DNA of 64,000 nt from Sulfitobacter sp. SK012 (GTDB taxonomy: Bacteria > Pseudomonadota > Alphaproteobacteria > Rhodobacterales > Rhodobacteraceae), in assembly GCF_003352085.1 (NCBI RefSeq), contig NZ_CP025804.1:4724205-4788204 (forward strand), given 5' to 3'. Under the pieces are notes generated by a model. It did no database searches. It was given only the letters and a program-made list of their open reading frames with translations, and was not told where the DNA came from. Numbering within the stretch: the stretch's first letter is position 1; every line of letters starts with the position of its first letter. The position numbers were made by a program, and so were the translations under genes. This document shows, one piece after another, positions 34,705 to 50,090 of the stretch.

Positions 34705-36117
34705 TTACCAACCGATCCCGTTGTAGTTTTGCTGTGGGTCAACTTTGGTGTTGATGCGGACCAAATCGATGACCGATTTTCCGTCTGCATCTTCGATCGC
34801 CTTGCGGTACAAATCGTTGGAGTGGGTCACGATCAATGTGTCGGCCGCGGCCACTACATCGGCGCAATCTGCGCGCATCATTGCAGGTAGATCGGTAGCC
34901 AAAGATTGTAGACCGGCACTACCGTGGCGGACATAAGCCAGCTGGCCTGCCAAAGGCGTTTCTGGGGTAATTGCGGGGTCGTGAACTACAACTTCGACGC
35001 CCTCAGCATGCAGCCTTGCAATCACTTCCAAGATTGGACTTTCACGCAGATCATCGGTTCCAGGTTTGAACGCTAATCCGAGCACACCAACACTCTTTGC
35101 GCCCGTTTCACGGACCATCTCAACCGCACGATCAATGTGGGTCGCGTTGGACACGCCAAGACTTTCGATCAGGGGGAGAGATACCCCTTGTTGTTTGGCG
35201 ATATGTGCAACCGCGCGCACCTCTTTTGGCAAGCAAGAGCCACCAAAAGCAAAGCCGGGCTTAAGGTAATAAGGGGAGAGGTTTAGTTTCGTGTCTTGAA
35301 CAAAAACGTCCATGACATCGTGGCTGTCGACACCCAAAGGTTTGCACAAACGACCAACCTCATTTGCAAAACAAACCTTCGTGGCGTGCCAAACGTTGTC
35401 GACATATTTCACCATTTCGGCAGTCTCGATCGAGGTGACAATTGGCTTTTCATCAATGGCTTCAAAGATGCGGGTCATGATGGCAGCGCTGCGGTTATCG
35501 TTGGTGCCGATAACGGTTTTTGACGGAGCATAGAAATCTGCGACCGCTACGCCTTCACGCAGGAATTCGGGGTTGAAGCAGACACCAAAATCAACGCCGG
35601 CTTTTTTGCCGCTGATTTCTTCGATGATTGGGGCCATAAATCCCATTGTGACACCCGGTGGGATCGAACAACGCATGACCACAACGTGAAAGTCATTTTT
35701 GCGCTTTAATCCGGCGCCAATCATGCGGGCAGCGACGTCGATATAACTGTGATCGCATCCGCCATCCGCAGCAGTTGGTGTACCCACCGAGACAAAGGTC
35801 AAATCTGTGTCAACGACAGCCTGCTCGAGGTCGTGAGTGGTGGCGATCAGGCCGTCATCGACACCTTGGCGCAGGAGCCGTTCCAAGTCGTATTCGTGAA
35901 TAGGAGATTTCCCATTTGCGATGCAGGTGACTTTGGCCGGATCAATGTCTACGCCAATGACATGATGCCCCAAGTTGGAAAAACACGCGGTTGATACAGC
36001 GCCGACATATCCAAGACCGACAACACTGATGGAGGGTTTTGTGTCTACGACGTGCAGTGGAGCCAGGGCAGTTTGACCAAATAGATGGTCGTCGAATTGT
36101 GAGTGGATATCGAGCAT
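34705..36117 (-). CDS. algD: GDP-mannose 6-dehydrogenase
   Basis: A 470-residue NAD-dependent four-electron dehydrogenase. It converts GDP-mannose to GDP-mannuronate, the committed precursor of alginate. GLGYVG (residues 34-39) binds NAD. The catalytic Cys is at 295 in PGFAFGGSCLPKEVRA, and SGKKAGVDFGV, VWHATKVCFANE and the terminal NGIGW match Pseudomonas AlgD rather than UDP-glucose dehydrogenases. About 28 extra residues precede the Rossmann fold. AGGA lies 8 nt before the ATG. A terminator of the preceding unit and a copy of the 16-bp motif stand upstream, so algD and the RTX gene form their own transcript. Confidence 0.93.
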   Translation of the reverse strand: MLDIHSQFDDHLFGQTALAPLHVVDTKPSISVVGLGYVGAVSTACFSNLGHHVIGVDIDPAKVTCIANGKSPIHEYDLERLLRQGVDDGLIATTHDLEQAVVDTDLTFVSVGTPTAADGGCDHSYIDVAARMIGAGLKRKNDFHVVVMRCSIPPGVTMGFMAPIIEEISGKKAGVDFGVCFNPEFLREGVAVADFYAPSKTVIGTNDNRSAAIMTRIFEAIDEKPIVTSIETAEMVKYVDNVWHATKVCFANEVGRLCKPLGVDSHDVMDVFVQDTKLNLSPYYLKPGFAFGGSCLPKEVRAVAHIAKQQGVSLPLIESLGVSNATHIDRAVEMVRETGAKSVGVLGLAFKPGTDDLRESPILEVIARLHAEGVEVVVHDPAITPETPLAGQLAYVRHGSAGLQSLATDLPAMMRADCADVVAAADTLIVTHSNDLYRKAIEDADGKSVIDLVRINTKVDPQQNYNGIGW

Positions 36118-36216: not shown

Positions 36217-36232
36217 CTATCCTTTGGCATAG
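36217..36232 (-). promoter_or_regulatory. Cluster operator motif, copy upstream of algD
   Basis: CTATCCTTTGGCATAG (plus-strand reading) matches the shared consensus CTATNCTTTGGNATAG exactly; the arms CTATNC and GNATAG are inverted repeats around TTTG. It ends 99 nt before the algD start codon and lies just past the algA terminator, where a new promoter is expected. A possible extra half-site (GTATG) lies 11 nt to the left. Confidence 0.7.
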
Positions 36233-36267
36233 GGGGGCTGTCCTTGCCGTTTAGGATGGCTTTTTGC

Positions 36268-36295
36268 AAAAAAAGGCGGCGCCCGAAGGCGCCGC
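36268..36295 (-). terminator. Rho-independent terminator after algA
   Basis: On the minus strand GCGGCGCC, loop TTCG and GGCGCCGC form an 8-bp perfect stem followed by CTTTTTTT. It starts 35 nt after the algA stop and closes the alg44-alg8-algA transcript. Confidence 0.9.
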
Positions 36296-36329
36296 TAAAG
36301 GTGGTGTGAGAGTGCTTATTGGTCTTGGT

Positions 36330-37769
36330 TTATGCAGCTTTGTCATCGGTCCGATCACGGGCATAAATATCCTCGTAACGAACGATGTCATCTTCGCCTA
36401 GGTAGGCACCAGTTTGCACTTCAATGAGGTGCAGCGGTACTTTTCCCGGGTTTTCCAACCGGTGGGTCGCACCAAGTGGAATGTATACGGATTGGTTTTC
36501 TGAGACGAGTTTTACATCCTCATCCACGGTTACATTCGCAGATCCAGCAACCACGATCCAATGTTCGGAACGGTGTACGTGGCTTTGCAAGGAGAGGGCC
36601 GCGCCAGGATGAACAACGATCTGCTTCACCTGGAATCTCTCGCCCAAAGATAGGGTTTCAAAGTAGCCCCACGGACGGTGATCTTTGGGGAACTGCTCGG
36701 CCTGTTTTGCCTTTTCTGCTTTCAACATTTTCACTGCAGTTTTAACGCTTTCGGACTTACTCATATCCGCAACAAGTACCGCATCGCCCATCGCGATGGC
36801 CGTGATGTTGCTCAGGCCAATTCCAACCAGTTGAACGCCGTCCGTCTCTGAGCGCAGCAAAGTGTTCTCACATTCGATCGCTGTTGTATTGCCATGCTCT
36901 ACGACGCCATTCTCGTCGGCATCCCCAGTTTGCCAGACCGAAGCCCAACTGCCCAAATCAGACCAACCGCAGCTCAGCGGGATCACAGACAGCGATTCAC
37001 AGGCTTCCATGATTGCGTAGTCAATCGAGATGTCTTCGGCAGTTTTGTATGGCGTTTCATCCAAGCGGTAGAAGTCTAGATCGTGGCGGGCACCTTCGAC
37101 AGAGCGGCGCACAGGCATCATCAGACGTGGGCACAACACCTCAAATGCCTCAAGGATCTCAGCGACGCGGAACATGAAGATGCCGGCGTTCCAAAGATGA
37201 CGGCGAGAAGCTAGAAACTCGTCGGCTAAGTCTTGCTCAGGCTTTTCTACAAAGGCTTTGAGCGGCTGTGCAAACGGCGCTGCGCTGCTGATGGGATCAA
37301 ATAGTTCTAGGTAGCCATAGCCTGTCTCAGCGCGATTTGGGGTTACCCCGAACGTGATCAACTTACCGGCTTCGGCGGCTTGCTCACCGGCACGTACCGC
37401 TTGTTCGAACGCAGCCTCATCAGCAATCGCGTGGTCTGAGGGCATGACCAACATAATCGCGTTCGGCTGGTCCTGCAGGCTAAGTGCTGCGGCCAAGATT
37501 GCCGGGGCCGTATTGCGCGCTTCGGGTTCGATCATGATTGTTGGTTTGACAGCACCAGCCGTTTGAAGTTGCTCAGCCACGATAAAGCGGTAGTCGGTAT
37601 TTGTGACGACGATTGGGTCTGCAATGCCGGCAGCCTGAACCCGCTTGATCGTTTGTTCAAACAGGCTGGTGTCGCCATTCAATTGCGCGAATTGTTTCGG
37701 GTAGCTTTTGCGTGACAAAGGCCAAAGGCGTGTTCCGCTGCCGCCCGCTAGAATTACTGGATAGATCAT
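36330..37769 (-). CDS. algA: Mannose-1-phosphate guanylyltransferase/mannose-6-phosphate isomerase
   Basis: A 479-residue bifunctional enzyme making mannose-6-phosphate and GDP-mannose for the polymer. The N-terminal nucleotidyltransferase has GGSGTRLWPLSRKSYPKQF (residues 9-27) and MPSDHAI near 109. FVEKPEQD is also present. The C-terminal cupin isomerase domain covers about 345-470, with LSLQSHVHRSEHWIVVAGSA, where His residues and Glu bind zinc. AGGAG precedes the ATG by 7 nt. It is the last gene before a strong terminator. Its start overlaps a small open frame by ATGA. Confidence 0.93.
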   Translation of the reverse strand: MIYPVILAGGSGTRLWPLSRKSYPKQFAQLNGDTSLFEQTIKRVQAAGIADPIVVTNTDYRFIVAEQLQTAGAVKPTIMIEPEARNTAPAILAAALSLQDQPNAIMLVMPSDHAIADEAAFEQAVRAGEQAAEAGKLITFGVTPNRAETGYGYLELFDPISSAAPFAQPLKAFVEKPEQDLADEFLASRRHLWNAGIFMFRVAEILEAFEVLCPRLMMPVRRSVEGARHDLDFYRLDETPYKTAEDISIDYAIMEACESLSVIPLSCGWSDLGSWASVWQTGDADENGVVEHGNTTAIECENTLLRSETDGVQLVGIGLSNITAIAMGDAVLVADMSKSESVKTAVKMLKAEKAKQAEQFPKDHRPWGYFETLSLGERFQVKQIVVHPGAALSLQSHVHRSEHWIVVAGSANVTVDEDVKLVSENQSVYIPLGATHRLENPGKVPLHLIEVQTGAYLGEDDIVRYEDIYARDRTDDKAA

Positions 37770-37951
37770 TGGTTAACTCCTAACACTCTCACATGTGACC
37801 GCACGTTCATCGATTGGCCTAACAATAAGGTTAGAGGTGTTGGAGAATTAATACGTGGCGCCACAAGGACAGTTTTGAGTCCAATGGAATGGACGATGTA
37901 TTCAGAAGTATAGTTTACGAAATTCGAAACAAACCATTTTAATTTCAGCAT
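37766..37951 (-). CDS. Possible small coupled ORF between alg8 and algA
   Basis: A 61-codon frame, MLKLKWFVSNFVNYTSEYIV and onward. It starts 9 nt after the alg8 stop with AGGCGGG just before its ATG and ends in an ATGA overlap with algA. It fills the 191-nt gap almost exactly, as a translationally coupled gene would. Against it: its base composition is more A+T-rich than its neighbours, its codon use looks untypical, and no domain is recognised. It may instead be a coupling leader for algA or chance. Confidence 0.35.
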   Translation of the reverse strand: MLKLKWFVSNFVNYTSEYIVHSIGLKTVLVAPRINSPTPLTLLLGQSMNVRSHVRVLGVNQ

Positions 37952-37960
37952 GTTACCCGC

Positions 37961-39544
37961 CTAAAATAGATATGGAAGAGACAGTAGATCTATATAGATC
38001 GCCAGCCCAATCAGGAAGCCAATCACTGTCGTGACTAGCTGGAACATAGCCATCGAATTCTTGATTTTGTCGATTGTAGCCGTACCTCCACCCGAACTTT
38101 GGTTTCCGCGGTTTGACCATTTCTGTTTGCTTAAATGGAAGATCATATAGACCTTAACGCTCGCATTGATGATCTGGTTGAAATACAAAATGAAGGGCCA
38201 GGTGATGTCAGGTGCGCGCGCATAGCGAAACAAGAATAGGCAAAGAAACGTGCGGCTCAACACGATCCAAATCAAGCAATGAACGATGTACATTGGCTCT
38301 ACAAATAGTGTGAGAATTGCCAATACTGGGCTGACCAACATCGTCCACATCGCGATGCGCTGATCTACTAAGCACCACCAAATGAATGGCTTGGCGACAA
38401 GCGGGCCAAGGGCAATTGCGCGCGATCCATTGCGCAACATGTTACCGGACCAACGGCGAAAGTTCTGGATCATTCGACCCGTACCCGACCCTTCGATCTG
38501 TTCGATCGTGTAGACACAGGCATCGGGTACATAGGTCATCTTGGCGCGCTTTGATAACAGGTAATACCAGGTGCTTTTGTCATCCCCGGACAAAAACCGG
38601 AAACGCCCCCACAGCCAATGATCCAAATGATCCGCTTCGATCGTGCGGATGAACTTTTCATCGATAATGTAGCGGGCGCGAAACACGCTCATCCGGCCAG
38701 TCAGGGTCAACACCCTGTCCGACATTGCATGGCTTTGCATAGCGAGACGCCGTTGAGCGAACCGCATGGACAGCCAGCTTTGGATCCACTGAGGGCCGTA
38801 GCAAATGACTTCTTCATTGGTGGTCAGCGCTTGCAAAATAGGATCAGCGCCAAACATCGAACAAGTTTTCTCCAGCACGTCGATGCCATAGACCGCATCA
38901 CCGTCCATAAAGATTACAAGATCGTCCGGGCCGACATTTGCGCGGTTAATCGCACGCAAAATCATACCGATCGCCATGCGCTTTCCCGGTTGATTTTGGC
39001 GCAGGAAAACGATTTCTGCATCTACGTCCGCTCCATGGGTGCGCACGAAATCAGTGATTATTTCCTCGTCATATGACGATCCTGTTCCAATCCAAAGCGT
39101 TGTTGGAATCCCTTCGCGCCTGATCTGTCCGATGATGGATCCGATGACGCGTCGCGTGATTGCAGGCTCTTCAAAGTAGGTGGTCATCTGGATGTGCAAA
39201 TGTCTTGGACGCCAACCAGATTGCCAAACCGCATTTGCCCGCGCCCTCATCTTGGGAAATTTGGTGCAAGAGAATATTTCGGCCCTTGCGGCGTGCGTGA
39301 ACCACCAGCCAAAGCGCCAAATTCCGAGAGACCCGAGCACGAAAGTGATGTTGATCAAATCTGGGTCAAAAAAGTTATTTGGCCAAAACACCAATGCTGC
39401 AATCAGCATAGTGATCAAGACTGTGAATTGCGTAATTTTCCGAGGGGGCCATTTATCTAGCCCTTTGGGGGAAGGGCCAGCCAAACTGTGCAACCAGCCG
39501 TCCAGATGCTTTTCAAACGCATAAATCGATTTAGGTGCGTTCAT
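37961..39544 (-). CDS. alg8: Mannuronan synthase catalytic subunit (Alg8-like GT2)
   Basis: A 527-residue inner-membrane glycosyltransferase that polymerises GDP-mannuronate. Membrane segments appear near residues 40-56 and 65-82 and as a cluster at about 395-510. The GT2 domain has FMDGDAVYG (Asp 214 and 216), QRRLAMQSHAMS with LTLTGRMSVFRA, and RFRFLSGDDKSTWYYLL with GDDKS at about 320-324, all matching Pseudomonas Alg8. The second of two adjacent ATG codons (39544) has GGAG at a 6-nt spacing. It overlaps the end of alg44 by 14 nt, so the synthase and its partner are coupled. Confidence 0.92.
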   Translation of the reverse strand: MNAPKSIYAFEKHLDGWLHSLAGPSPKGLDKWPPRKITQFTVLITMLIAALVFWPNNFFDPDLINITFVLGSLGIWRFGWWFTHAARAEIFSCTKFPKMRARANAVWQSGWRPRHLHIQMTTYFEEPAITRRVIGSIIGQIRREGIPTTLWIGTGSSYDEEIITDFVRTHGADVDAEIVFLRQNQPGKRMAIGMILRAINRANVGPDDLVIFMDGDAVYGIDVLEKTCSMFGADPILQALTTNEEVICYGPQWIQSWLSMRFAQRRLAMQSHAMSDRVLTLTGRMSVFRARYIIDEKFIRTIEADHLDHWLWGRFRFLSGDDKSTWYYLLSKRAKMTYVPDACVYTIEQIEGSGTGRMIQNFRRWSGNMLRNGSRAIALGPLVAKPFIWWCLVDQRIAMWTMLVSPVLAILTLFVEPMYIVHCLIWIVLSRTFLCLFLFRYARAPDITWPFILYFNQIINASVKVYMIFHLSKQKWSNRGNQSSGGGTATIDKIKNSMAMFQLVTTVIGFLIGLAIYIDLLSLPYLF

Positions 39545-40955
39545 CATTATCTCCAAACCAAGACGCAAAGAAGTCACGCTTCAGACGGATGCGGGCGGGG
39601 GCGTTGCGGCGGAACCATTTACGTGTCTTTTTGATGCCTGCGTCGTCGGCCTTGATCGTGATGACCATCCCGAACTTGTCAGGTTGTGCGATATCGGTGC
39701 CGGCCTGGATGTCAGTCACTTGTCCCTGGATGCGCTTGGATTGCCCTCGAAAAACGTAAGCAACATCTGCCGTCATGCCAATGTGCACGCTCGTGGCCAT
39801 ACTATCATCCACCCAACCGACAGCGATCCGCGGGGTATTATCCTCAATCTCTACGACCAAGTCATCGCGGGTCACGTAGCTGCCTTTGAGCGCATAGAGA
39901 CCAAACACGGTGCCATCATATTTGGCACGTACAACCAGCTCATCTGCGGCGGCTTTACGGTGGCGTAACTCACGTTTCCAACGGCGCAGATCTAGGTCGC
40001 GTTCGTTGACTGCTTCTTGGTGCGTGCTGAGCATATCGAAATGCGTCAGGGCGTTGATGTCCCGGCGGCGGTCAAAGTCATACAGCGCGCGGCGGGCAGC
40101 CTCGATACTTTCAGGGTAGATCAGCAGGTGTGGGTCATTTTTCTGCCACGGCACCCAAAGCACTTGAAACCTTACCCAAAGGGCCGCGCGCAGGCCGCTA
40201 CGTTGCAATATGTGTTGTGCAAGACGGTCTTGGGCTGTGCGCAAACGACGTTCGGCCAAGAGAACCTCAGCACGCACGTCTTCTACATCGCTTTCACGAT
40301 CAGGATCTTCGATACGGGCCAGAATATCGCCGGGTTTAACCTGATCGCCAACGCTCACATTAATACGCGTGATATATCCTGATTCAGGAGCATCATATGT
40401 TGTGATTGGTGCCACAAAACGAGCGTGATCCAATTGAACGTGTGACAGGCGTTGCCAGATTTGGCCTCCTAGAAACAGCACCAAAAATGCTGCCGCAGCC
40501 ATATAAAAGAAGGTATTCCAGATGATCCGTAGCGACCGGGGTTTGGCTTTGGCGCGCCCGGCAGTTTCTTCTTCTTCTGTTTCGCCCATTGGGACCAAAT
40601 CAACCGGGGTATCGAGGCTAGAAATCATATCACCCGTCGACACCATCTGACCCGTCATTACACCCTTGTAGAACGTACCAAGTGTTTCGCGCTGGCGAAC
40701 TGTCAGTTCATGAAAGGTGTAGTGCCCAGGTGTTTCCGTCTCATTCAGTCGCGCAGGAAAGGATACCTCAACGCCTTGGAAAGGTACTGACAGAATAACG
40801 TCACCGGACATGTCGTCTTGATCAGGATCAAGCCATACTCCAGCCAAAGACCAACGGTTTGCAATAACTTTGCATCCGTTCGCTTTGTTTAAATGCAACG
40901 GCGCTGTCACCGAAAAGGACAGATCCGGCATTGGACATTCATGACGAATGTTCAT
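39531..40955 (-). CDS. alg44: Alg44-like membrane-fusion partner of mannuronan synthase
   Basis: A 474-residue protein with the Alg44 layout. A cytoplasmic N-terminal domain covers residues 1-120, a membrane segment lies near 147-165 (WNTFFYMAAAAFLVLFLGG), and a periplasmic HlyD-like part follows (SGYITRINVSVGDQVKPGDILARI; coiled region about 230-340). In Pseudomonas the N-terminal PilZ domain binds c-di-GMP through RxxxR and D/NxSxxG. Here the region keeps only NRWSLAGVWL and shows no RxxxR, so c-di-GMP binding is doubtful. GGAG lies 6 nt before the ATG. It is the first gene of its unit, with an operator motif upstream at 41074-41089. Confidence 0.88.
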   Translation of the reverse strand: MNIRHECPMPDLSFSVTAPLHLNKANGCKVIANRWSLAGVWLDPDQDDMSGDVILSVPFQGVEVSFPARLNETETPGHYTFHELTVRQRETLGTFYKGVMTGQMVSTGDMISSLDTPVDLVPMGETEEEETAGRAKAKPRSLRIIWNTFFYMAAAAFLVLFLGGQIWQRLSHVQLDHARFVAPITTYDAPESGYITRINVSVGDQVKPGDILARIEDPDRESDVEDVRAEVLLAERRLRTAQDRLAQHILQRSGLRAALWVRFQVLWVPWQKNDPHLLIYPESIEAARRALYDFDRRRDINALTHFDMLSTHQEAVNERDLDLRRWKRELRHRKAAADELVVRAKYDGTVFGLYALKGSYVTRDDLVVEIEDNTPRIAVGWVDDSMATSVHIGMTADVAYVFRGQSKRIQGQVTDIQAGTDIAQPDKFGMVITIKADDAGIKKTRKWFRRNAPARIRLKRDFFASWFGDNDERT

Positions 40956-41073
40956 TGCATACTCCAGGTTAATACCGGCACGCCGGCGACTCTCACCCTG
41001 AAATAATATCTGTTAAGATTTTGTTTTGTTGGCACGCAGGGGTTCAGTCTGCTGTGCTGGCGTATAGGGCCCG

Positions 41074-41089
41074 CTATCCCAAAGTATAG
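41074..41089 (-). promoter_or_regulatory. Cluster operator motif, copy upstream of alg44
   Basis: The plus strand reads CTATCCCAAAGTATAG; the minus strand reads CTATACTTTGGGATAG, an exact match to the consensus. It overlaps the last codons and stop of the hybrid-kinase gene and ends 118 nt before the alg44 start. An extra GTATAG half-site lies 12 nt to the left (41062-41067). Confidence 0.7.
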
Positions 41090-43665
41090 GATTTAGCTTT
41101 GAGTGCAGATTGTGTGGCCGGCCATGCTGAAACGACGTCATCTACACATTTCATTACGCGCTTTTCATCACCAGCCTTCGCGGCATGCTCCAGTTCGCGC
41201 AAGAGGTTTTGGAAATGATGAGCGCCGATCATGCCAGAAGATCCAACAGATTTGTGCGTATCAGAGGCTAAGCTTAGCATATCCCCCTGCTGCAACAGCA
41301 AAGGGATTTGGGCAAGAAATGCGGTGATTTCAACTTCAAAACCTGAGACCAATCTCTGCAATAGATCTGATTTGAGAATTTGCTCGAGTTCAGAAAATGT
41401 CGCTGCATCGATCAAGATAATGTCTGATGAAACAATGCTAGCTTCTTGATAGGAAGAATTTGCTTGAACGACTGACAGCAACGCTTCAATCAAAGTGGAT
41501 TGAGATATCGGTTTGTTCAAAACCGTATCCATTCCCGCAGCTATGAAGCGAGCTTGCTCATCGGGAAGTGCATGCGCGGTTAATCCTAAAATCTTGGCGT
41601 TTTGGTTGGGACCAACAGTGCTTCGAATGATCTCGGTGGCATCAACTCCGTTCATGACAGGCATGCTGACATCCATCAGAATCGCTGCGTACTCTCGTAT
41701 CTGCGCAAGGTCTACCGCCTCTTGGCCATTGAGAGCCTCATACACAACCATCCCATTCAACTTCAGCATTTCACAAAAAATCAGCCGGTTGATTTCGTTG
41801 TCCTCAACCAACAAGATCTCTTGACCTTCGAGCGGCGTCACGTCGACTTCATGTTCGAACCGGGTGCTTTCTTGCTGTGGTGCTTCATCCATTTCAAATG
41901 GCAGTGACACGGTAAAGCTGGAGCCTTTGCCAGCGCTACTTTGCAACGAAATCGTACCACCCATCATGTCGATTAATTGTTTGCAAATTGCTAAGCCGAG
42001 ACCCGCACCAGAGGCAAATCGATCGTAAGATCGCTCTTGGGTGTAGAAACGGTCGAAAACAAATGCCTGATCCTCTGCGTGAATTCCGACACCAGTGTCG
42101 ATCACAGAAAACTCCAAAGTCATCTGGCCATCTTGATCCGCAAACGTGTTCGCGCGCAATGTTACGGTGCCGTTGGAGGTAAATTTCAGAGCATTGCTGA
42201 TCAGGTTGTAAGTGACCTGTCGCATCCTACGCTCGTCCAATAGGACGGCACCCTTGGGCATCTTTTCCAGTTGTAGCTCAAGCACGTTGCATTGCGCATC
42301 CGCAGTCGCTTCATTCGCAGTAACCACATCTGAGAAAAACTGTGCCAGATCAAAACTGTCTTCGACTAGTTCCATCTTTTCCGCATCCATGCGCGACACA
42401 TCCAACACATCGTTGACGTGGTGCAACAAGATGTCACCCGAGCGTTTGGCGATTTCCAGGAAACTGCGTTGTTTCTCTGTTACTTTGGAATTGCTCAAGA
42501 GTTCGAGTGTGCCAAAAATTCCATTCAAGGGTGTGCGCATTTCATGGCTCATGACAGCCAGAAAATTGGACTTCGCAGTTTCGGCGGCCAGTGCTTCGTC
42601 ACGCGCCGATTTCAAATCCTGTTCGGCGGCCACGCGTTCAGTGATGTCGCGCAGATACGAGATGAAAATCGTACCCCGGTGATCTGCGGCCATGCCTATT
42701 GAAATCTCAACAGGGAATTCTTCACCAGATTTTCGCAGGCCCGTGATCTCGATCCGTCCCTTGCCAACCAGTCGCGCGTCTTGCGTCTTGTTGAACCGTG
42801 CCATCCCAGCTGTATGGGCTGCACGCAGGTGCTTGGGAACAATCAGATCGGTCATTTCCTGCCCGACAGCTTCACTTGCCGCAAAACCGAAAACGGCTTC
42901 TGCAGCTTCGTTGAATTCCAAAATGACGCCCTCTGTGTCGGCCACAACAATAGCATCTAAGGACACATCGAATGTTGATTTAAGACGGGCATTGGCTCTC
43001 ACAACGGCATCAGATGCATCTTGGTGCAAGCGATGCTGACGGACGATCACAGTTAAAACGAATGCAAGAAACAAAATAGTCGCAAGACTTACAATCGCTG
43101 CAACGAACAATAACCGAGCCAGCGATTTTCGTTCGACATCGGAAGTCTCTGAACGCAGCCCAATGCCCGTTAAAGCAATGGCATGGGCCTCCTCGCGAAT
43201 TCGTTTCAGTTCATCAATTAGAGGGTCCAAGTTGGCCAAGAGCGCGGCATCAGAGCTGTCGATGATTTTCGTTAACTTCGTTAAGCATCTTTCGAGCGTT
43301 TCGAGTTGACTACTAAAAACTGCATCCGTGCGCATCTGTGCAAACACAGGCGCATCACGCAACGTACTGGTTCGGCTGTATAGATTGTCGAAACGGCGGC
43401 GGATGTCAGATACATCGGTCGTTTCGGCCTGTGCAGTGAGTAAAGCCTCGTCCATCAGAATTAAGACGTCAACTTCGACCTGCGAGAGCGTCCAAGTTAA
43501 GTTGTCGCCCGGTGCCTCGCTTAGGTCGTCCATGCGCTGGGTAATGACGATGGCCAGTCCTGCCAGCAAAAATATACCGACGAGGATGACTGCCAGCGGT
43601 ACTAAACGGCGCGCCTTATCATTCTTTTCAAACAAGATCTGAGCCCTTTTAGCGCCTATGGGCAT
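41074..43665 (-). CDS. Hybrid sensor histidine kinase (PAS-HisKA-HATPase-REC-Hpt)
   Basis: An 863-residue membrane kinase. Two transmembrane segments (residues 21-42 and 184-207) flank a helical periplasmic sensor of about 140 residues. A PAS domain follows (about 225-350, ending SYLRDITERVAAEQ). The HisKA box has His374 in AVMSHEMRTPLNG, and ATP binding is shown by GAGLGLAICKQL near 553. A receiver domain has Asp665 in ILMDVSMPVMNG, and an Hpt domain has His804 (SDTHKSVGSSGMIGA). This is a complete His-Asp-His relay that needs an external response regulator; the LuxR-type protein at 31326 is the likely one. It begins 9 nt after a periplasmic molybdopterin-fold gene, its probable sensing partner. 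Confidence 0.92.
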   Translation of the reverse strand: MPIGAKRAQILFEKNDKARRLVPLAVILVGIFLLAGLAIVITQRMDDLSEAPGDNLTWTLSQVEVDVLILMDEALLTAQAETTDVSDIRRRFDNLYSRTSTLRDAPVFAQMRTDAVFSSQLETLERCLTKLTKIIDSSDAALLANLDPLIDELKRIREEAHAIALTGIGLRSETSDVERKSLARLLFVAAIVSLATILFLAFVLTVIVRQHRLHQDASDAVVRANARLKSTFDVSLDAIVVADTEGVILEFNEAAEAVFGFAASEAVGQEMTDLIVPKHLRAAHTAGMARFNKTQDARLVGKGRIEITGLRKSGEEFPVEISIGMAADHRGTIFISYLRDITERVAAEQDLKSARDEALAAETAKSNFLAVMSHEMRTPLNGIFGTLELLSNSKVTEKQRSFLEIAKRSGDILLHHVNDVLDVSRMDAEKMELVEDSFDLAQFFSDVVTANEATADAQCNVLELQLEKMPKGAVLLDERRMRQVTYNLISNALKFTSNGTVTLRANTFADQDGQMTLEFSVIDTGVGIHAEDQAFVFDRFYTQERSYDRFASGAGLGLAICKQLIDMMGGTISLQSSAGKGSSFTVSLPFEMDEAPQQESTRFEHEVDVTPLEGQEILLVEDNEINRLIFCEMLKLNGMVVYEALNGQEAVDLAQIREYAAILMDVSMPVMNGVDATEIIRSTVGPNQNAKILGLTAHALPDEQARFIAAGMDTVLNKPISQSTLIEALLSVVQANSSYQEASIVSSDIILIDAATFSELEQILKSDLLQRLVSGFEVEITAFLAQIPLLLQQGDMLSLASDTHKSVGSSGMIGAHHFQNLLRELEHAAKAGDEKRVMKCVDDVVSAWPATQSALKAKSYTLG

Positions 43666-43674
43666 TGTGATGCC

Positions 43675-44196
43675 CTAGTTAACCGACTCTATTCGATCCA
43701 TCTGCCAGATTGAGCGCGAATAGATCACCTCTGTACGATATTTTGCATCGTCGTCGTAGGGGTAAACAATCCAAAGTGGGCCCTTGCCACGGGCCGACAT
43801 TTCTGAACCGTTCATCAAGTAAGCGACGATAGGTGCGTCTGCTTCCAACCCGTCTGTCGGAATTTCTACCTTGTAGTCGTTTGATGCGATGGCCCCAATA
43901 GTGGCTCCTGTAGCCCCTGCGTAGTCCAATACATCGCTTAGGCTAACTCCGGTAAATTCAACGTCTCCTTCGACCCATATCGTAGAAGTAGTAAATACTT
44001 TGGTGCCCAGCGATTTAAGGATCTCTAGGTCCAGCGTTACGCTGCCATCCGGTGCTTCAGCTGTCTGATTGTTCAGGTCGCCTGAGATGGTCAACAGAAC
44101 CTTACCCGTTGGGGCGGGCAGCGTGTCGGCCAAAGCAGGGAGTGAGGCGAACGAAAGAATGGCTACGGTGGCGCGAAAGGTGTTCATCAAGGACAT
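43675..44196 (-). CDS. Periplasmic molybdopterin-oxidoreductase-fold protein
   Basis: A 173-residue exported protein. The start at 44196 gives MSLMNTFRATVAILSFASLPALA (signal peptide) with GGAG 7 nt upstream. The mature part matches the small oxidoreductase molybdopterin-binding fold (GKVLLTISGDLNN, FTGVSLSDVLDYAGA, YKVEIPTDGL, GKGPLWIVYPYD, YSRSIWQMDRI). The cofactor-binding Cys of true sulfite-oxidase-type enzymes is absent, so it is likely a ligand sensor rather than an enzyme. Family members often stand next to signalling genes. Here it is the first gene of a two-gene unit with the hybrid kinase, with an operator motif 80 nt before its start. Confidence 0.82.
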   Translation of the reverse strand: MSLMNTFRATVAILSFASLPALADTLPAPTGKVLLTISGDLNNQTAEAPDGSVTLDLEILKSLGTKVFTTSTIWVEGDVEFTGVSLSDVLDYAGATGATIGAIASNDYKVEIPTDGLEADAPIVAYLMNGSEMSARGKGPLWIVYPYDDDAKYRTEVIYSRSIWQMDRIESVN

Positions 44197-44276
44197 CAAG
44201 TGCTCCGATCTAAAGGCAACTAAAATGGTGCTAACAGCCGTGCCTGAAAACACACACCACGCAGGGGTATAGCGGA

Positions 44277-44292
44277 CTATACTTTGGTATAG
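44277..44292 (-). promoter_or_regulatory. Cluster operator motif, copy upstream of the sensor unit
   Basis: CTATACTTTGGTATAG matches the consensus exactly. It is embedded in a larger inverted repeat: TAGCGG on its left and CCGCTA on its right. An extra GTATAG half-site is at 44267-44272. It lies between algX and the molybdopterin-fold gene, 80 nt before the latter's start. The kinase genes therefore appear to belong to the regulon they may control. Confidence 0.72.
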
Positions 44293-44317
44293 CCCGCTAC
44301 GATTTGAAACATAACAG

Positions 44318-45631
44318 TCAGTTGAAAAAGTGAATTTTTGCAACCACTTGCTTGCTCTCTTTTGGTAGGCGCAACTTGATGCGGGCAATCTGATCTGCAG
44401 GCATTCCACTCAAGGAAATTGTCCATTTGTTGCTGCGCAGCTCCGCTGATACTCGGTCTGTTTTAACCAGTTTTGTCCGTATTTTTCCACCATCGACATT
44501 GACTAACTCGACAATCAATTGACCTGAATTGATGTCACCGGTCTCAATCTCAAGACTACGTACGTCCGAGACCAGGAAGCTGTGATCAAGACCAACCCAA
44601 TCTTTTCCGATATTGGCTTCTAATGTGCCAACCTGGGCTTGCTCGCCTGTCATTTGCAGCGCGCCCAAGATTTGGCGCAACCCATCAACGTAGGTCAGGG
44701 GCGCCGAGTACGGAGTTTCCCAGACGACTGTCTTGTAGCTTCCGTTTTTCAATGCACCAGTGCGGATGAACGCTTCCATTGATCCAACCAGACCGCCACC
44801 TGTGGCAGAAAAGTTGTCGACCGATGCATCCATCATGAACGCCAGAGCATCCGCAACTTGATAAGCGTCTCGCTGGTAACGGTCAGAAAAGCTGGTGCCC
44901 ACCAATGCGATCTTATCTTTCACGGGAGCGTCACCTAGCAATGATTGCGCCGAACCCTCTTGGGCGTATTGTGGCGCAGATGCCGTTTCGATTGTAGGAC
45001 GGGTCCCGCAAACCTCTTTTACCACACCAGCCAAAGACCCTTTTTCCTCATAGGTGGCGGTCGCGTTGATCCGCGCCACGCTGTCTTGGACAGATCCGTT
45101 GCGCATTGCTGCGTTTAGATGTGCTGCCGACAACGCCGCGCCCGTTGGTGTCCAATGTGTATCCCGAGCAAAGTAGAACTCTTCGGCTGTTGGACTATCC
45201 GCAATAACAGACAAATCAGGCGCAGTGATACCTGCAGAGTTTAGGGCCGCAATATAGGCGCTGAACCCAGTTTTGATTTCAGACAGGTCTACGTCATTGG
45301 GTAGCCCCATCGCATCGATTGCTTCGTCAGATGCGAACAAGGGCCTTGGCGGCGCGGCCATAACAACCAATTCAACACCGTGCTTGTCAAATTCCGCTTT
45401 AATATTTTGCCACATTGCAGTCGTTTCATCCGTAACGGCGTATTTATCCTTCAGCTGATCATGGCCGATAATCCAGCCCGTAGAAACGTCCGAATAGAAC
45501 GGTCCACGTTTTTGATACTTCTTGGGCAGTTGATCTTGGATACCCAGGTCGGCGCAAAAAGGTGCCGCACTTGCCGGCGCTGCATATGCCATGGTCGCTG
45601 CAAGTATTAGATGTGTCAGTGTACGGTTCAT
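44318..45631 (-). CDS. algX: Alginate O-acetyltransferase AlgX-like protein
   Basis: A 437-residue periplasmic protein with signal peptide MNRTLTHLILAATMAYAAPASA. The SGNH-like acetyltransferase domain shows Asp157 and His159 in ARDTHWTP and Ser247 in LVGTSFSDRY, matching the catalytic triad of Pseudomonas AlgX. A C-terminal domain of about 120 residues corresponds to the AlgX carbohydrate-binding module. The ATG at 45631 overlaps the algJ stop (ATGA). It is the last gene of the algE-F-I-J-X unit. AlgX transfers acetyl groups to mannuronate residues during export. Confidence 0.88.
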   Translation of the reverse strand: MNRTLTHLILAATMAYAAPASAAPFCADLGIQDQLPKKYQKRGPFYSDVSTGWIIGHDQLKDKYAVTDETTAMWQNIKAEFDKHGVELVVMAAPPRPLFASDEAIDAMGLPNDVDLSEIKTGFSAYIAALNSAGITAPDLSVIADSPTAEEFYFARDTHWTPTGAALSAAHLNAAMRNGSVQDSVARINATATYEEKGSLAGVVKEVCGTRPTIETASAPQYAQEGSAQSLLGDAPVKDKIALVGTSFSDRYQRDAYQVADALAFMMDASVDNFSATGGGLVGSMEAFIRTGALKNGSYKTVVWETPYSAPLTYVDGLRQILGALQMTGEQAQVGTLEANIGKDWVGLDHSFLVSDVRSLEIETGDINSGQLIVELVNVDGGKIRTKLVKTDRVSAELRSNKWTISLSGMPADQIARIKLRLPKESKQVVAKIHFFN

Positions 45632-46677
45632 TGGATCATTTCCTTGGATGTATAGCGCGAGGGAATTTCCCAAACGACGATTTTTGGAGGGGTGTCTTGG
45701 AATGTGTCGGAGGCTAAGAAAGCCACCATTGGAGCGAATGGGCCTTGGCCTTCAGATGCGAAATTCAGGACATCTGCCGCAAGGGCATCTTGTAAAAATC
45801 CAGTGAAGTTCCATTCGGGTTTGGCGCTAAAACTGGTCCCAACCAATGCAACGTCAACGTTCGCATCACCGAATAGACCGCCTGCCGCTTCCACGGTGGT
45901 TGTGTAAGTGGCGATCTGGTTTTGCTCGGGGCCGAAGACTTTGCGCAATGCTCCAGTAGGTACAAATTGCAGCAGGTCCCCGTCAAAATCTACTTTTGGT
46001 CCCTGCACTGTTGTGACCGTCGCAGGTGCTAGTTCGACATCCAAATTCTTAAGATGTGCTGCAACAATTTCGGCGACAGCACGGCTACCGGTTGGAGACC
46101 AATGTGTATCATCTTTGATGAACCCATTGGCCCGTAGATCGTTCGGACGCAGAGCATCGTAGGCATCCAGAGCCATCACATTTCTTGCGGCCAATAATGA
46201 AAAAAAATCTTTCCGACGTGTCTGCGTTTCAGCTGGGCGAGAAACCCGCAAATGCTTTGCGTACACATCTGCTTTGTCAGGGACAATCACAGGGATTAGC
46301 GTAATCCCCTTCCGCTTCAGGAATGCTTGAACACGCGCGATCTCAGTCGCAGACTGGGACATGTTTTCGTAAAAATCAGGGCTCACTTCGAACTCTTCCG
46401 ACGTGAACAGCCAACCGTCCTTGCCAACAACAGCGCCCTGTTCTGCTTGCCCAAAAGCCGCATACTTAATAGTGCCCATGACCGATATTGACGCATCGTT
46501 CAGAGGGTTAGCCTCGGTAAAGCCTTTCTCGTAGATCGACTGCATTGCTCCGTCTATGACGCTGGTGTTTATGGCTGGCTTCTCCATCAGCATGTGTGCG
46601 CTAAGGCCAATTGCAGCCAAAAAATACAAGAATCCAACCGAAGCCATCATTTGAGTTTTTTCGTTAATCATTAACAT
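45628..46677 (-). CDS. algJ: Alginate O-acetyltransferase AlgJ-like protein
   Basis: A 349-residue protein with an N-terminal membrane anchor (residues 11-29) and an SGNH-like periplasmic domain. It has Asp190/His192 in KDDTHWSPTG and Ser282 in LVGTSFSAKP, the same triad layout as algX, and GAVVGKDGWLF near 81-91. AlgJ works with AlgI and AlgF in passing acetyl groups to the polymer. The gene starts 10 nt after algI, with AAGG 8 nt before the first ATG, and overlaps algX by 4 bp. Only the order and membrane anchor separate AlgJ from its paralogue AlgX. Confidence 0.85.
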   Translation of the reverse strand: MLMINEKTQMMASVGFLYFLAAIGLSAHMLMEKPAINTSVIDGAMQSIYEKGFTEANPLNDASISVMGTIKYAAFGQAEQGAVVGKDGWLFTSEEFEVSPDFYENMSQSATEIARVQAFLKRKGITLIPVIVPDKADVYAKHLRVSRPAETQTRRKDFFSLLAARNVMALDAYDALRPNDLRANGFIKDDTHWSPTGSRAVAEIVAAHLKNLDVELAPATVTTVQGPKVDFDGDLLQFVPTGALRKVFGPEQNQIATYTTTVEAAGGLFGDANVDVALVGTSFSAKPEWNFTGFLQDALAADVLNFASEGQGPFAPMVAFLASDTFQDTPPKIVVWEIPSRYTSKEMIQ

Positions 46678-46687
46678 GTCATGAACC

Positions 46688-48085
46688 TTAAAATTGGAAA
46701 TACAGGAAAGGAGAGTGAGTTTGTGCGAGCAGGGCCATGCAGGCCATGACCATCAACGCAAAAGTAGAGGTAAGCTGCAAAGCTGCAGGTGTGTCTGTAG
46801 TCATCCCAGCCAAGCGTTGGCCGAAGACTGAGATCACACTGCCCAAGAGCAGGGCAACAATTTCTGTCGGTTGAATTTGCCAAGCCATCGAGGCCGACAA
46901 GGACCAGCCATTAAGTCCGATCATCCCTGCATACATATTGAATGCTTCTGTGACGGAGGCTGCGCGAAACATGACCCAACCAATCATCACAAGGGTCATT
47001 GTGAGCGGCCAGGCAATCAGTGCAGGCCAAACCTGGGTTTTGGATTTCGCTCCTAAAGCGCGCTCAAATGCCAACCAGATACCGTGCCATGCGCCCCACA
47101 AAATGAAGGTCCAGTTTGCGCCGTGCCACAATCCACCCAACAGCATTGTCATTGCTAAGTTGATGTAGGTGCGTGCAGCACCGCGGCGGTTGCCACCTAG
47201 TGGTAAATACAGATAGTCGCGCAACCACATAGAAAGGCTGATGTGCCAGCGGCGCCAGAACTCTGTGATCGATTGGCTGATGTAGGGGGCGTTGAAATTT
47301 TCGACGAACTGAAAACCAATCATCAGGCCCAGACCAATGGCCATCGATGAATAACCCGCGAAATCAAACAGCAGCTGGATGGAATAGGCCGATGCGCCCA
47401 ACCAGCTCTCGGTCCCTGTTGGATTAGAGAGCGCAAATATCCGGTCGGCAAGAGGGGCAACATTGTCTGCGATCAGGAGTTTCATTGCCAACCCTTGGGC
47501 AAACCGGCTGATGCCTTGGACGAATTTTGCAGGCGTATGGGTACGGTTAGCGAACTGATCCGCCAAGTCTTTGTAGCGCAAAACCGGACCTGCAATAAGT
47601 TGCGGGAACAAAGAACCAAAAGCCAGAAAGTCGATCAGATTGCGGGCGGGTGGCGCGTCTTTGCGCGACACATCAATGATATAGCTGATTGATTGAAACG
47701 TGTGAAAGCTGATGCCGATCGGAAGGATGATTGCTGGGACGGTAATGTCAGCCCCACCCAAAGCAACGGACAAATCACTAAGACCTGACATCGCAAACAT
47801 AGTGTATTTGAAATACCCGAGAACCGCCAAATCGAAGGCGACGCCAAGGCGAACGGCCCATGTTTTGATCGTGGTCGTGGTGGCGGTGTAAGCCACATAT
47901 GCGGCTAAATAGCTAATCACCGACATGCCAAACACTACGGCCAAATAATCGAGCCGCCACCAGCCGTAGAAAGCGTAACTGCCTATCAAGATCACGACAG
48001 AACGAGCTGATTTTGGAGCGGCGTAATAAACAGTAAGAAACAAGGGCAAGAAGCCGAAGATAAAGATTGAACTAGAAAAAATCAT
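46688..48085 (-). CDS. algI: MBOAT-family alginate O-acetylation protein AlgI
   Basis: A 465-residue polytopic membrane protein with about ten or more hydrophobic segments. The start MIFSSSIFIFGFLPLFLTVYY is typical of AlgI/DltB. The conserved MBOAT histidine lies in GGLWHGANWTFILWGAWHG (about residues 312-330), and the SITEFWRRWHISLSMWLRDYLY motif precedes it. It moves acetyl groups across the inner membrane to AlgJ, AlgX and AlgF. It starts 24 nt after the algF stop and ends 10 nt before algJ. Confidence 0.93.
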   Translation of the reverse strand: MIFSSSIFIFGFLPLFLTVYYAAPKSARSVVILIGSYAFYGWWRLDYLAVVFGMSVISYLAAYVAYTATTTTIKTWAVRLGVAFDLAVLGYFKYTMFAMSGLSDLSVALGGADITVPAIILPIGISFHTFQSISYIIDVSRKDAPPARNLIDFLAFGSLFPQLIAGPVLRYKDLADQFANRTHTPAKFVQGISRFAQGLAMKLLIADNVAPLADRIFALSNPTGTESWLGASAYSIQLLFDFAGYSSMAIGLGLMIGFQFVENFNAPYISQSITEFWRRWHISLSMWLRDYLYLPLGGNRRGAARTYINLAMTMLLGGLWHGANWTFILWGAWHGIWLAFERALGAKSKTQVWPALIAWPLTMTLVMIGWVMFRAASVTEAFNMYAGMIGLNGWSLSASMAWQIQPTEIVALLLGSVISVFGQRLAGMTTDTPAALQLTSTFALMVMACMALLAQTHSPFLYFQF

Positions 48086-48109
48086 GACATCGTCCCTTTT
48101 GAAAAATCG

Positions 48110-48706
48110 TTATTTGGCCAGGGGCGCAAATTGGTTTTCGATCAACCGCACACCATCTGCATCCGCCACAAAGCTGAGGTTCTGACCCCGGCGCAGAGAC
48201 ACATCAAAGGTCGCCAACGGTGCTTCTTGATCGGCTTCGAAAACACCTAAGCTGATGGCCACAGGATTGACTTCGCGCAGCGCAGAGGTGGTCGGCGCAA
48301 CAGCTTCGAGCACTGCGACAGTCCCATCGGCCAAACGCAGTTCTAGCTGCGTGTCTGTGCCATTCACCAATAATAGAGCCACTTTGGATTGACGTGTCCG
48401 TGGACCTTCATCAATCGTTTGGAGCTCTCCATCAGCTGCGCGGAGCACAGATATGAAGCTGCCGGATGTGATGTTGCTCAGTTGGGATGCTGACACTGGG
48501 ATGTATTTCCCGACTTCATCGGCAACCAAATCGAATGTGAAACCGGCAAACTCGGCGCTGTTTTGACCATCAAATCCGACAAAGCGCACAAAGCTTGCAT
48601 CGTCAGGCAGCGCTTCGGCATACAAACTGTTGTCGTCGGCAAGGACTGGGGAGCAGGTTGAAAAGAAAGACATGCAAACTGCGGCGAACAGGGAGGGATT
48701 ATTCAT
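48110..48706 (-). CDS. algF: AlgF-like periplasmic O-acetylation accessory protein
   Basis: A 198-residue exported protein. The start at 48706 gives signal peptide MNNPSLFAAVCMSFFSTCSPVLA with AAGG upstream. The mature part starts DDNSLYAEALPDDASFVRFVGF, typical of AlgF, and contains short beta-strand-like segments. Its length is close to that of the Pseudomonas protein. It lies between algE and algI, as AlgF is expected to act with the acetylation machinery. Resemblance is moderate but the context is strong. Confidence 0.82.
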   Translation of the reverse strand: MNNPSLFAAVCMSFFSTCSPVLADDNSLYAEALPDDASFVRFVGFDGQNSAEFAGFTFDLVADEVGKYIPVSASQLSNITSGSFISVLRAADGELQTIDEGPRTRQSKVALLLVNGTDTQLELRLADGTVAVLEAVAPTTSALREVNPVAISLGVFEADQEAPLATFDVSLRRGQNLSFVADADGVRLIENQFAPLAK

Positions 48707-48716
48707 TTTGACAACC

Positions 48717-49970
48717 TTAAAAATATACGGATACACGCATGTAAATCCGTGTTGCAGAGGATTGATCGACATAGGCCGGACCGGGGGTAAAGCGGCCCGC
48801 ACCGAACTCGATTTTAGATTTTTTGTTGGGGCGCCATGCTCCGGCAAGGCTGACTTCTGTGCCCAAGAAAGAGGAGCTACCGGTGGTCGCTCCGGACAAC
48901 CTTGCGCTTGGACCAGTGGTTGATTTGGTGGGTTGTCCGTAGACGTGAAAACCCAAGTCCACTGACAGCATGCGAGAAGGGCGAATGCCGACAGCAACCG
49001 ACCCAACGGCCAGGTTCGTCAGATCAGGGCGAAACACATAGCCGTAACGGTGGACCTGTGTTTGGCCGCTATTGTAGGTTTTGTTCTGGTGCAAACCGGA
49101 TTGGCGGTAGCCATCGGAGCCAATTGCAAAGCCAGCCATCAGTTGTGGGTTTAACTTGCTTGAGCCCAACTTGTGGATCGTACGGAGATCAAACCCTATG
49201 CCCGCAGATTTGTCGTTGGCAGCATCACCAGCAACGGCACCGACATTAAGCTCAAAGGAAAACCGCTGCGAAACGGCAGCATTTGCATACCCCGCAAGGT
49301 GAACTCGATTTTCGTCACCGTCGTTTTCGATCAAAGCCAACGCGCCGTAGCGCAAATTGTTCTTTACGCGGCCGTGATGCGCAAACAAATAAGAAGCGCC
49401 TGGATCTTTGACCCCAGTGACGGCAGCTAGCTCTGTCACTCGTTTGTCTGTTCTATGTCCGAAGTGAACACCATCGACAGCCGCATCTGCGACCCATTTG
49501 TTCAAGTCAGAAAATCGCATGCGGCCAACCGTCAGGCGCGCTTGGTCGTTCACTTCAAAAGAGACAAGCGCTTCTTTTGTCCTCCAGCGTGTCGCCAAAC
49601 TACTCGTGCCATCACGGGTGGTTTTAGACCGATAATCCAACTCACCATGGCCAAATGCGATTATGCCGTGACCCAAATCAACGCGCCCAACAAACCCCAC
49701 ATGTAGCGCATAGCTTTCTGTGCGGTCATCAACGTCATCGTCGCGGCGCCGGTTGCGCTCGCTTTGAAAACGAACGTTGGAATAGAGCGAATAAGACAAA
49801 CGCTGCCCGACTTCGTGTTTGGTTCTTTTGCGTTTTTCAGCATTGAACACCGACGCAGCGGTCAGCACTTTGGCTTTCTTGGTGCCAGCTTCACTGGCTT
49901 GAGGTGTCAAAAAAACAGCACTTATAAGCGCCGCAGTGGCGAAACGCACAACCTTGTTACTCATCATCAT
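48717..49970 (-). CDS. algE: Alginate export outer-membrane protein (AlgE-like)
   Basis: A 417-residue predicted beta-barrel with signal peptide (MMMSNKVVRFATAALISAVFLTPQASEA). It contains alternating strands and an Arg/Asp-rich region (SERNRRRDDDVDD), and motifs such as GRMRFSDLNKWVADAAVDGVHFG. The end (IYMRVSVYF) has the terminal aromatic residue of outer-membrane barrels. AlgE is the pore for alginate release. It is the first gene of the export/acetylation unit, with an operator motif 104 nt upstream. Three in-frame ATG codons at 49970, 49967 and 49964 make the exact start uncertain. It is shorter than the Pseudomonas protein of about 490 residues. Confidence 0.8.
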   Translation of the reverse strand: MMMSNKVVRFATAALISAVFLTPQASEAGTKKAKVLTAASVFNAEKRKRTKHEVGQRLSYSLYSNVRFQSERNRRRDDDVDDRTESYALHVGFVGRVDLGHGIIAFGHGELDYRSKTTRDGTSSLATRWRTKEALVSFEVNDQARLTVGRMRFSDLNKWVADAAVDGVHFGHRTDKRVTELAAVTGVKDPGASYLFAHHGRVKNNLRYGALALIENDGDENRVHLAGYANAAVSQRFSFELNVGAVAGDAANDKSAGIGFDLRTIHKLGSSKLNPQLMAGFAIGSDGYRQSGLHQNKTYNSGQTQVHRYGYVFRPDLTNLAVGSVAVGIRPSRMLSVDLGFHVYGQPTKSTTGPSARLSGATTGSSSFLGTEVSLAGAWRPNKKSKIEFGAGRFTPGPAYVDQSSATRIYMRVSVYF

Positions 49971-50074
49971 TATCTCAGCTCTCACACTAAAAAGGATGAG
50001 TGATAACTACCGACTGAGGATGGTTTGGAGCAGACTGCCAAAGGTCTACAGATAGGGCAATTGGCCTAGCACGG

Positions 50075-50090
50075 CTATTCTTTGGGATAG
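50075..50090 (-). promoter_or_regulatory. Cluster operator motif, copy upstream of algE
   Basis: CTATTCTTTGGGATAG matches the consensus exactly. It ends 104 nt before the algE start, in the region between divergent algE and serC. GCCTAG, a possible half-site, lies 11 nt to the left (50064-50069). Confidence 0.7.

Follow-up and report, generated by a model that had tools for sequence, protein, structure and literature searches.

A conserved palindrome before the four transcription units of an alginate gene cluster in Sulfitobacter sp. SK012, a probable operator of a NarL-type response regulator

A review describes PruR, the protein of the structures 7KOS and 7KP2, as having a tryptophan (Trp) in place of the molybdenum-ligating cysteine (Cys; PMC13259868, section 7), and presents the combination of PruR with a DcpA-TorS-BaeS-like kinase (PruR-DTB) as a class broadly spread in the Proteobacteria, with Ruegeria pomeroyi DSS-3 shown as an example (PMC13259868, section 8). 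Sections 7 and 8 of that review name neither a DNA site, nor target genes, nor an output of the DTB class; and LuxR, response regulator, alginate, and Roseobacter are unmentioned in its text as far as that was accessible. Here we analyze a window—by which we mean the whole stretch of 64,000 nucleotides from position 4,724,205 to 4,788,204 of the forward strand of contig NZ_CP025804.1 (assembly GCF_003352085.1) of Sulfitobacter sp. SK012—that contains a predicted alginate gene cluster with a PruR-kinase gene pair embedded in it, and in which a 16-bp palindrome with the consensus CTATNC-N4-GNATAG precedes each of the four transcription units of that cluster. The palindrome is probably the operator of a response regulator (RR) encoded at 31326–31940, which protein would be the output of the PruR-kinase phosphorelay.

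With the PruR-DTB class the window shares a gene pair, for a pterin-binding protein of SUOX fold that has the conserved Trp, and for a TorS-like PAS hybrid kinase, but the window kinase adds an HPt domain and has the motif W-x7-D. The PruR-DcpA system of Agrobacterium tumefaciens likewise sets a PruR-type sensor over surface polysaccharide and attachment; the output there, however, is the turnover of cyclic di-GMP (c-di-GMP), whereas the window has a histidine kinase and a DNA-binding RR. The regulators NarL and VraR of the NarL/FixJ family resemble that of the window in having REC and GerE domains and paired inverted half-sites. The NarL site is a 7-2-7 arrangement of heptamers, whereas the window sites have CTATNC arms around a 4-nt centre, and the sites of the family—that is, of the group used by the genome search—tend to include a third half-site 20 nt farther on. 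As to the alginate genes, the clusters of Pseudomonas and Azotobacter share homologs of algD, alg8, alg44, algX, algE, algI, algJ, algF, and algA with the window, which differs from them in its four units under a shared site, its embedded sensor genes, and an RTX gene; control in Pseudomonas, through AlgU, AlgR, and AmrZ, is of another kind. Alginate genes have also been reported in another alphaproteobacterium, of the family Micavibrionaceae (PMC9238374), and for AcfR, a FixJ-family regulator, the words "motif" and "binding site" are absent from PMC7945327 in the part accessible. Among titles and the openings of abstracts, subscription papers being outside that scope, no publication describing this site or regulon was found.

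The four copies of the palindrome that the initial annotation had listed are all present without a mismatch: before the algD-RTX unit (36217–36232, + strand, CTATCCTTTGGCATAG), before alg44-alg8-algA (41074–41089, - strand, CTATACTTTGGGATAG as read on that strand, and hence reversed), before pruR and the kinase gene (44277–44292, + strand, CTATACTTTGGTATAG), and before algE-algF-algI-algJ-algX (50075–50090, + strand, CTATTCTTTGGGATAG). The distances to the starts of algD, alg44, pruR, and algE—99, 118, 80, and 104 nt, respectively—were likewise right, given the ATGs at 36117, 40955, 44196, and 49970; and the remark that no copy was seen at other promoters held for the whole genome (5,176,795 bases), where the exact palindrome occurs four times and every time within the alginate cluster. 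The reversed control pattern also has four matches in that genome, so that the significance of the sites derives from their position and not from their number. When one mismatch was allowed, 57 sites were found genome-wide versus 113 for the reversed control, and the strict form alone is therefore informative; seven of the 53 one-mismatch sites were inspected, of which six lay inside open reading frames (ORFs) of at least 100 codons. In simulated 64-kb windows of the same composition, 0.0125 exact palindromes with any centre are expected per window, and the palindrome with a TTTG/CAAA centre did not occur in 400 simulations. An independent matrix, trained only on other genomes, from which we took 58 sites upstream of pruR (none with more than one mismatch), ranked the window sites 1 to 4, with scores of 22.2 (alg44), 20.6 (algE), 20.4 (pruR), and 20.3 (algD), the next-best position in the window scoring 11.2 and the maximum over 400 simulated windows being 16.7.

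The alg44 site and the stop codon of the upstream kinase gene overlap, as they do also in G187 (with a one-mismatch site) and in the Ascidiaceihabitans metagenome-assembled genome (with an exact site), which latter (Rhodobacterales, Paracoccaceae in the NCBI taxonomy) was the single relative found by an alg44 scan of named genomes. In the pruR promoter an extra CTATAC on the - strand begins 20 nt past the start of the palindrome, and degenerate further half-palindromes at 41052–41067 and 44257–44272, some 20 bp away from the sites of alg44 and pruR, fit the third half-site of the family promoters. A weak candidate for a fifth site, GTATTCAGAAGTATAG at 37898–37913 (strand not assigned), lies 128 nt before algA with one mismatch and a matrix score of 7.2; about 1.1 such scores are expected per window, and a full site before algA is thus unsupported there. 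Before algA in the ten relatives scanned, four have sites scoring 14–24, five have none, and G187 has a weak one.

Phylogenetic footprinting in orthologous clusters, which the initial annotation had put forward, revealed that the site is kept in relatives; neither of the two outcomes that the initial annotation had named as refuting its regulon, many copies at unrelated sites of the genome or a lack of such conservation, was thus observed. We assembled 80 PruR neighbourhoods from 77 genomes (1.05 Mb; three genomes gave two loci each), these loci being the top PruR matches by rank with the own genome excluded, with G021 (twice), G158, G056, and others skipped, and with G107 and G243 added from lower ranks. 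With the start of pruR taken from an alignment to the window protein rather than from a start codon, exact palindromes, whatever their centre, were found 20–260 bp before pruR at 37 of the 80 loci—not a random sample, given this selection, in which G243 was moreover already known to carry the motif—versus none for the reversed control, and over the entire 1.05 Mb there were 61 exact palindromes and no control match. A matrix trained on the exact sites was then applied to the remaining 43 loci, of which 30 had a near match at p<0.02 in Markov simulations, 26 of these being 80–130 bp before pruR. In the aligned family sites a C precedes and a G follows the palindrome, and the third half-site, approximately CTATCCC, lies 20 nt from its start. 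Within the fetched stretches, to which these counts apply, 76 of the 80 neighbourhoods have a relative of the window kinase, and 67 have an RR with 38% identity or more.

The exact string CTATNCTTTGGNATAG occurs in 21 of the 295 family genomes, own genome included, and its reversed control in 3. At 17 of the 26 non-window loci it stands at or beside PruR-kinase, RR, alg, FIST/globin, or glycosyltransferase genes; and in L024 a kinase gene whose RR neighbour is an ortholog follows it at about 0.5 kb. In two genomes (L015 and L023, site at 1501) an exact CTATCCTTTGGTATAG has the same position, next to ORFs for a pseudouridine synthase and a DUF6476 protein, with no evident link to polysaccharides; and in L013 (site at 1501) an exact site, probably there by chance, precedes the gene of a class I tRNA synthetase by 86 bp.

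The RR gene (31326–31940, + strand) encodes a member of the NarL/LuxR family with REC and GerE domains according to Pfam, whose closest solved structure is NarL (1a04, the best PDB match), with VraR also among the best PDB matches; the region of its phospho-acceptor Asp, LLDYEMPG, aligns to LLDLNMPG of NarL, and its nearest relative within the own genome is 30% identical. The initial annotation had named this LuxR-type regulator as the candidate binder, which proposal is supported by the co-occurrence of motif and RR gene in the 295 family genomes (294 genera). With presence defined as E<=1e-45 for the RR and E<=1e-8 for PruR, RR orthologs were found in 142 of these genomes and PruR homologs in 166, PruR being present in 127 of the 142 genomes with the RR (p=1e-30; all such values are from Fisher tests that treat matches or genomes as independent and use no tree). 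At least one exact motif was present in 108 of the 142 genomes with the RR versus 40 of the 153 without it (p=4e-18), and the exact motif and reversed control matched 239 and 231 times in the former, versus 48 and 205 times in the latter. By genotype, in a table compiled by hand whose totals agree with the tallies (148, 166, and 142 genomes), the motif/control matches were 218/201 with both genes (127 genomes), 21/30 with the RR but not PruR (15), 9/47 with PruR but not the RR (39), and 39/158 with neither (114). The RR without PruR thus differed from neither gene (p=0.003 for matches, 0.0009 for genomes), whereas PruR without the RR did not differ from neither gene (p=0.70 and 0.40); and that PruR itself marks the motif as a direct partner is unsupported, the ratio of 9/47 being as low as that of 39/158. 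In G215, moreover, the sole RR match (E<=1e-15) is inside the alg cluster and the PruR-kinase pair, which includes one of two PruR matches, is on another contig, with the site at both loci.

Of 289 genomes of the class, 12 have an RR match at E<=1e-38, two of these being in the family; at the ten loci outside it there was one exact site (L201) and one with one mismatch (L199), so that the site code is not shown to extend beyond the family. In L193 (G410, of another family) an RR about 50% identical adjoins PruR and kinase genes, with no palindrome within one mismatch, and the site code may be different there.

The gene at 43675–44196 (- strand, start ATG 44196) had been described in the initial annotation as a molybdopterin-fold gene; its product has a fold of SUOX type by homology to solved PruR, and neither its identity as PruR nor the next gene as that of the partner kinase had been recognized. 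Against the PDB the protein matches 7rkb (E 2.1e-33), 7kos (7.3e-32), and 7kp2 (1.2e-19), its Trp aligns with the Trp of 7kos and 7rkb, and its 173 residues, close to the 170 or so typical of PruR proteins, include no Cys; the N-terminus resembles a signal peptide as judged by eye only, and the protein is probably periplasmic with a reduced pterin bound. The kinase gene (41074–43665, - strand) is co-directional with pruR, 9 nt apart, and encodes a hybrid histidine kinase of the arrangement PAS-HisKA-HATPase-REC-HPt, for which the TorS model heads the list with 347 bits over residues 344–856, though below its cut-off of 676.5. By fold match, domain content, and gene order, the two genes have the arrangement of a PruR-DTB pair.

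Homologs of alg44 were found in 20 of the 295 genomes, and an exact site lies 76–118 bp before that gene at 7 of these 20 loci (own genome counted), with a one-mismatch site at one more; in some relatives sites also precede algD, algE, and algA. The sites are, however, not specific to alginate. Within the 80 PruR neighbourhoods there are 24 exact sites away from pruR, of which 17 are at polysaccharide genes, as identified by the Pfam families Polysacc_synt, Poly_export, WecG and Bac_transf, GNVR, pyruvyl transferase, and glycosyltransferase, or as alg genes—we interpret Polysacc_synt as Wzx-like and Poly_export as Wza-like—while the other seven are before an RR gene (one) or at genes without a Pfam match (six). 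For three of the 17 (L062 3737, L109 14175, and L124 18556) the called ORF includes the site, which nevertheless lies ahead of the domain that matched; two (L092 8163 and 8209) belong to a single promoter. The regulon proposed in the initial annotation as a dedicated one would be so within the own genome, but not elsewhere, where the site precedes Polysacc_synt, Poly_export, and other exopolysaccharide genes. In L070, L086, L099, and L103, an exact site immediately precedes a gene for a protein of 477–499 aa that no Pfam family matches; the four genes occupy the position at which two others have a GNVR match, and possibly form one chain-length-type family.

The sensor, too, appears to have been exchanged. 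In the alginate clusters of six relatives (G139, G035, G264, G215, G230, and G072) the RR gene adjoins that of a kinase 24–26% identical to the window kinase, each of the six kinases having PAS domains and a REC domain, and the fetched stretches of those clusters yielded no PruR match, although G264, G215, G230, and G072 have one elsewhere in the genome. A FIST-domain protein is encoded beside the kinase in all of these except G035, in which a single ORF was tried for FIST and gave no match, so that a FIST protein and a PAS kinase would apparently stand in place of PruR and its kinase. That arrangement recalls the FIST/NosP-associated kinases; of the five FIST proteins, two were scanned with the NosP model and scored 28.7 and 39.3 bits versus its cut-off of 450, and since these scores are so far below, we do not claim nitric-oxide sensing. 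No FIST protein was found in the window genome. Among the FIST loci (L213, L211, L212, L215, and L217), a globin gene adjoins the site in L213 and L211.

We propose the following mechanism, in which the first step, that of the pterin, is drawn by analogy with PruR-DcpA as PMC13259868 presents it, and the others we infer from the domains of the proteins, the geometry of the sites, the gene content, and the co-occurrence. Periplasmic PruR would sense a pterin and act on the TorS-like hybrid kinase at its periplasmic domain, upon which phosphate would pass from the kinase REC to the HPt domain and from there to the RR. A dimer of the RR would bind the two arms of the palindrome at all four promoters, perhaps with another subunit on the third half-site, and would most likely act as an activator, about 60 bp upstream of the start of transcription. 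As the same operator precedes pruR and the kinase gene, that operon would be among the targets of the RR and the circuit would feed back on its own sensor. The regulon of the own genome would then consist of the alginate cluster plus the sensor, whereas elsewhere in the family this RR and site would control other exopolysaccharide genes. With somewhat less assurance, we favour the broader reading that exopolysaccharide control throughout the family is built around a constant pair of RR and operator, and that evolution has swapped what stands at either end: the polymer (alginate or one of the Wzx/Wza type) and the sensor (PruR-kinase or FIST-PAS kinase).

Several observations weigh against this interpretation. 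No palindrome was found upstream of the RR gene of the window, which gene is 4–18 kb from the sites. Even the genomes with the RR have no excess of the motif over the reversed control (239/231), so that the case rests on contrast and position, the low baseline ratio of motif to control being taken as a scarcity of the string in these genomes. The PruR matches in the genomes without the RR are mostly weak and perhaps of another type, six of the 39 being at E<=1e-30 (motif 0, control 5), which small number makes the separation of PruR from the RR less sharp than the totals suggest; and the 15 genomes with the RR but without PruR indicate that the regulator has other inputs. A site is missing at p<0.02 from 13 of the 80 pruR loci, and within one mismatch from 12 of the 20 alg44 loci, one of which (L158) lacks upstream sequence; and 8 of the 26 non-window CTATNCTTTGGNATAG loci are at genes without an evident link. 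The window kinase has W-x7-D and not the W-x7-E of the DcpA-type periplasmic domain, where among 76 family kinases a permissive pattern found some W-x7-E in 61, only W-x7-D in 13, and neither in 2. Finally, the promoter geometry is weak, in that the putative -10 element (some 55–60 nt past the start of the site) was read by eye only, and a scan with a consensus promoter gave 10 sites versus 16.5 in shuffles.

Part of these observations would suit a different, unlinked transcription factor as the binder of the palindrome, with the RR merely co-occurring: the RR gene itself has no site, and NarL-type sites have other arm sequences and another spacing. Co-occurrence was examined for the RR and PruR as regulators, and the excess of the motif tracks the RR, even where PruR is missing (15 genomes), and not PruR alone; in addition, alginate clusters in which the fetched stretch has the RR but no PruR match retain the site. 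We thus hold an unlinked factor to be improbable. A stronger rival accepts the sites as RR operators but has them repress, so that the RR, or the pterin signal through it, would turn polysaccharide synthesis off, as may be suggested by Agrobacterium, where according to PMC13259868 the signal through pterin, PruR, and DcpA lowers biofilm formation and disfavours attachment. Yet the site is mostly 80–130 nt before the gene start and the -10 hints noted above lie past it, which geometry suits an upstream activator, while the pterin could inhibit the kinase even so, the sign of the signal and that of the binding being separate; repression is accordingly a possibility to which we give a distinctly minor share.

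The fairly fixed position before genes might alternatively suggest that the palindromes are recognized as promoter elements by an alternative sigma factor, or are hairpins of the transcript. The arms, however, are symmetric around a centre that is asymmetric and of free orientation, the alg44 site being reversed; a third half-site in direct orientation follows 20 nt on; the distance to the gene start varies; and the motif depends on the presence of the RR gene, all of which renders that explanation very unlikely. As for mere chance repetition within the cluster, the equal genome-wide counts of true and reversed patterns would be in its favour, but the confinement of every copy in the genome to this cluster, the simulations with their 0.0125 expected palindromes per window, and the conservation across the family lead us to reject it as next to impossible. 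The operator of the RR therefore remains our preferred interpretation of the palindrome.

The cluster runs entirely on the - strand, in the order algE-algF-algI-algJ-algX, pruR-kinase, alg44-alg8-algA, and algD-RTX, with the RR gene convergent to it at the far end. From its gene set—whose product, alginate, is predicted—we assign algE, for alginate export (48717–49970, with the ATG at 49970 chosen as start), algF (48110–49006), algI, of the MBOAT family (46688–48085), the algJ-like (45628–46677) and algX-like (44318–45673) genes, alg44, HlyD-like (39531–40955), alg8, a glycosyltransferase (37961–39577), algA, a mannose-1-phosphate guanylyltransferase/mannose-6-phosphate isomerase (36330–37769), and algD, a nucleotide-sugar dehydrogenase of the GDP-mannose type (34705–36117). 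The terminator that the initial annotation had placed after algA is there, as a GC-rich, intrinsic-terminator-like hairpin with a T-run (36276–36295, read from 36295 on the - strand). In the 20 ORFs scanned we saw no AlgG, AlgK, or AlgL, no search having been aimed at these three. Alg44 has HlyD/biotinyl-lipoyl matches and no PilZ match at E<=0.001, so that control by c-di-GMP through PilZ may have been lost or have strongly diverged.

Downstream of algD, the gene at 31957–34662 (- strand) encodes an RTX protein of 901 aa with calcium-binding repeats; relatives of that protein adjoin the RR in alginate clusters of relatives, and one is found within 1.5 kb of the RR at 11 of 30 family RR loci (own genome counted). 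G055, the sole other sampled genome of the window's genus, has no RR ortholog, alg44 match, or exact site, and its PruR match is weak, so that the cluster varies within the genus. The source bacterium is probably marine.

If the palindrome is indeed the operator of the RR, a response regulator could be assigned to the PruR-DTB systems, together with a DNA code and a set of targets, and pterin signalling would be tied to the matrix without the turnover of c-di-GMP as the direct output. A readable operator would make the output of such systems predictable from sequence, in naming the RR and in listing its target promoters across genomes, and alginate genes beyond those of Pseudomonas and Azotobacter would receive a proposed control circuit. 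For the family as a whole, these results suggest that the production of the matrix may have been rewired by the exchange of sensors and polymers around one regulator.

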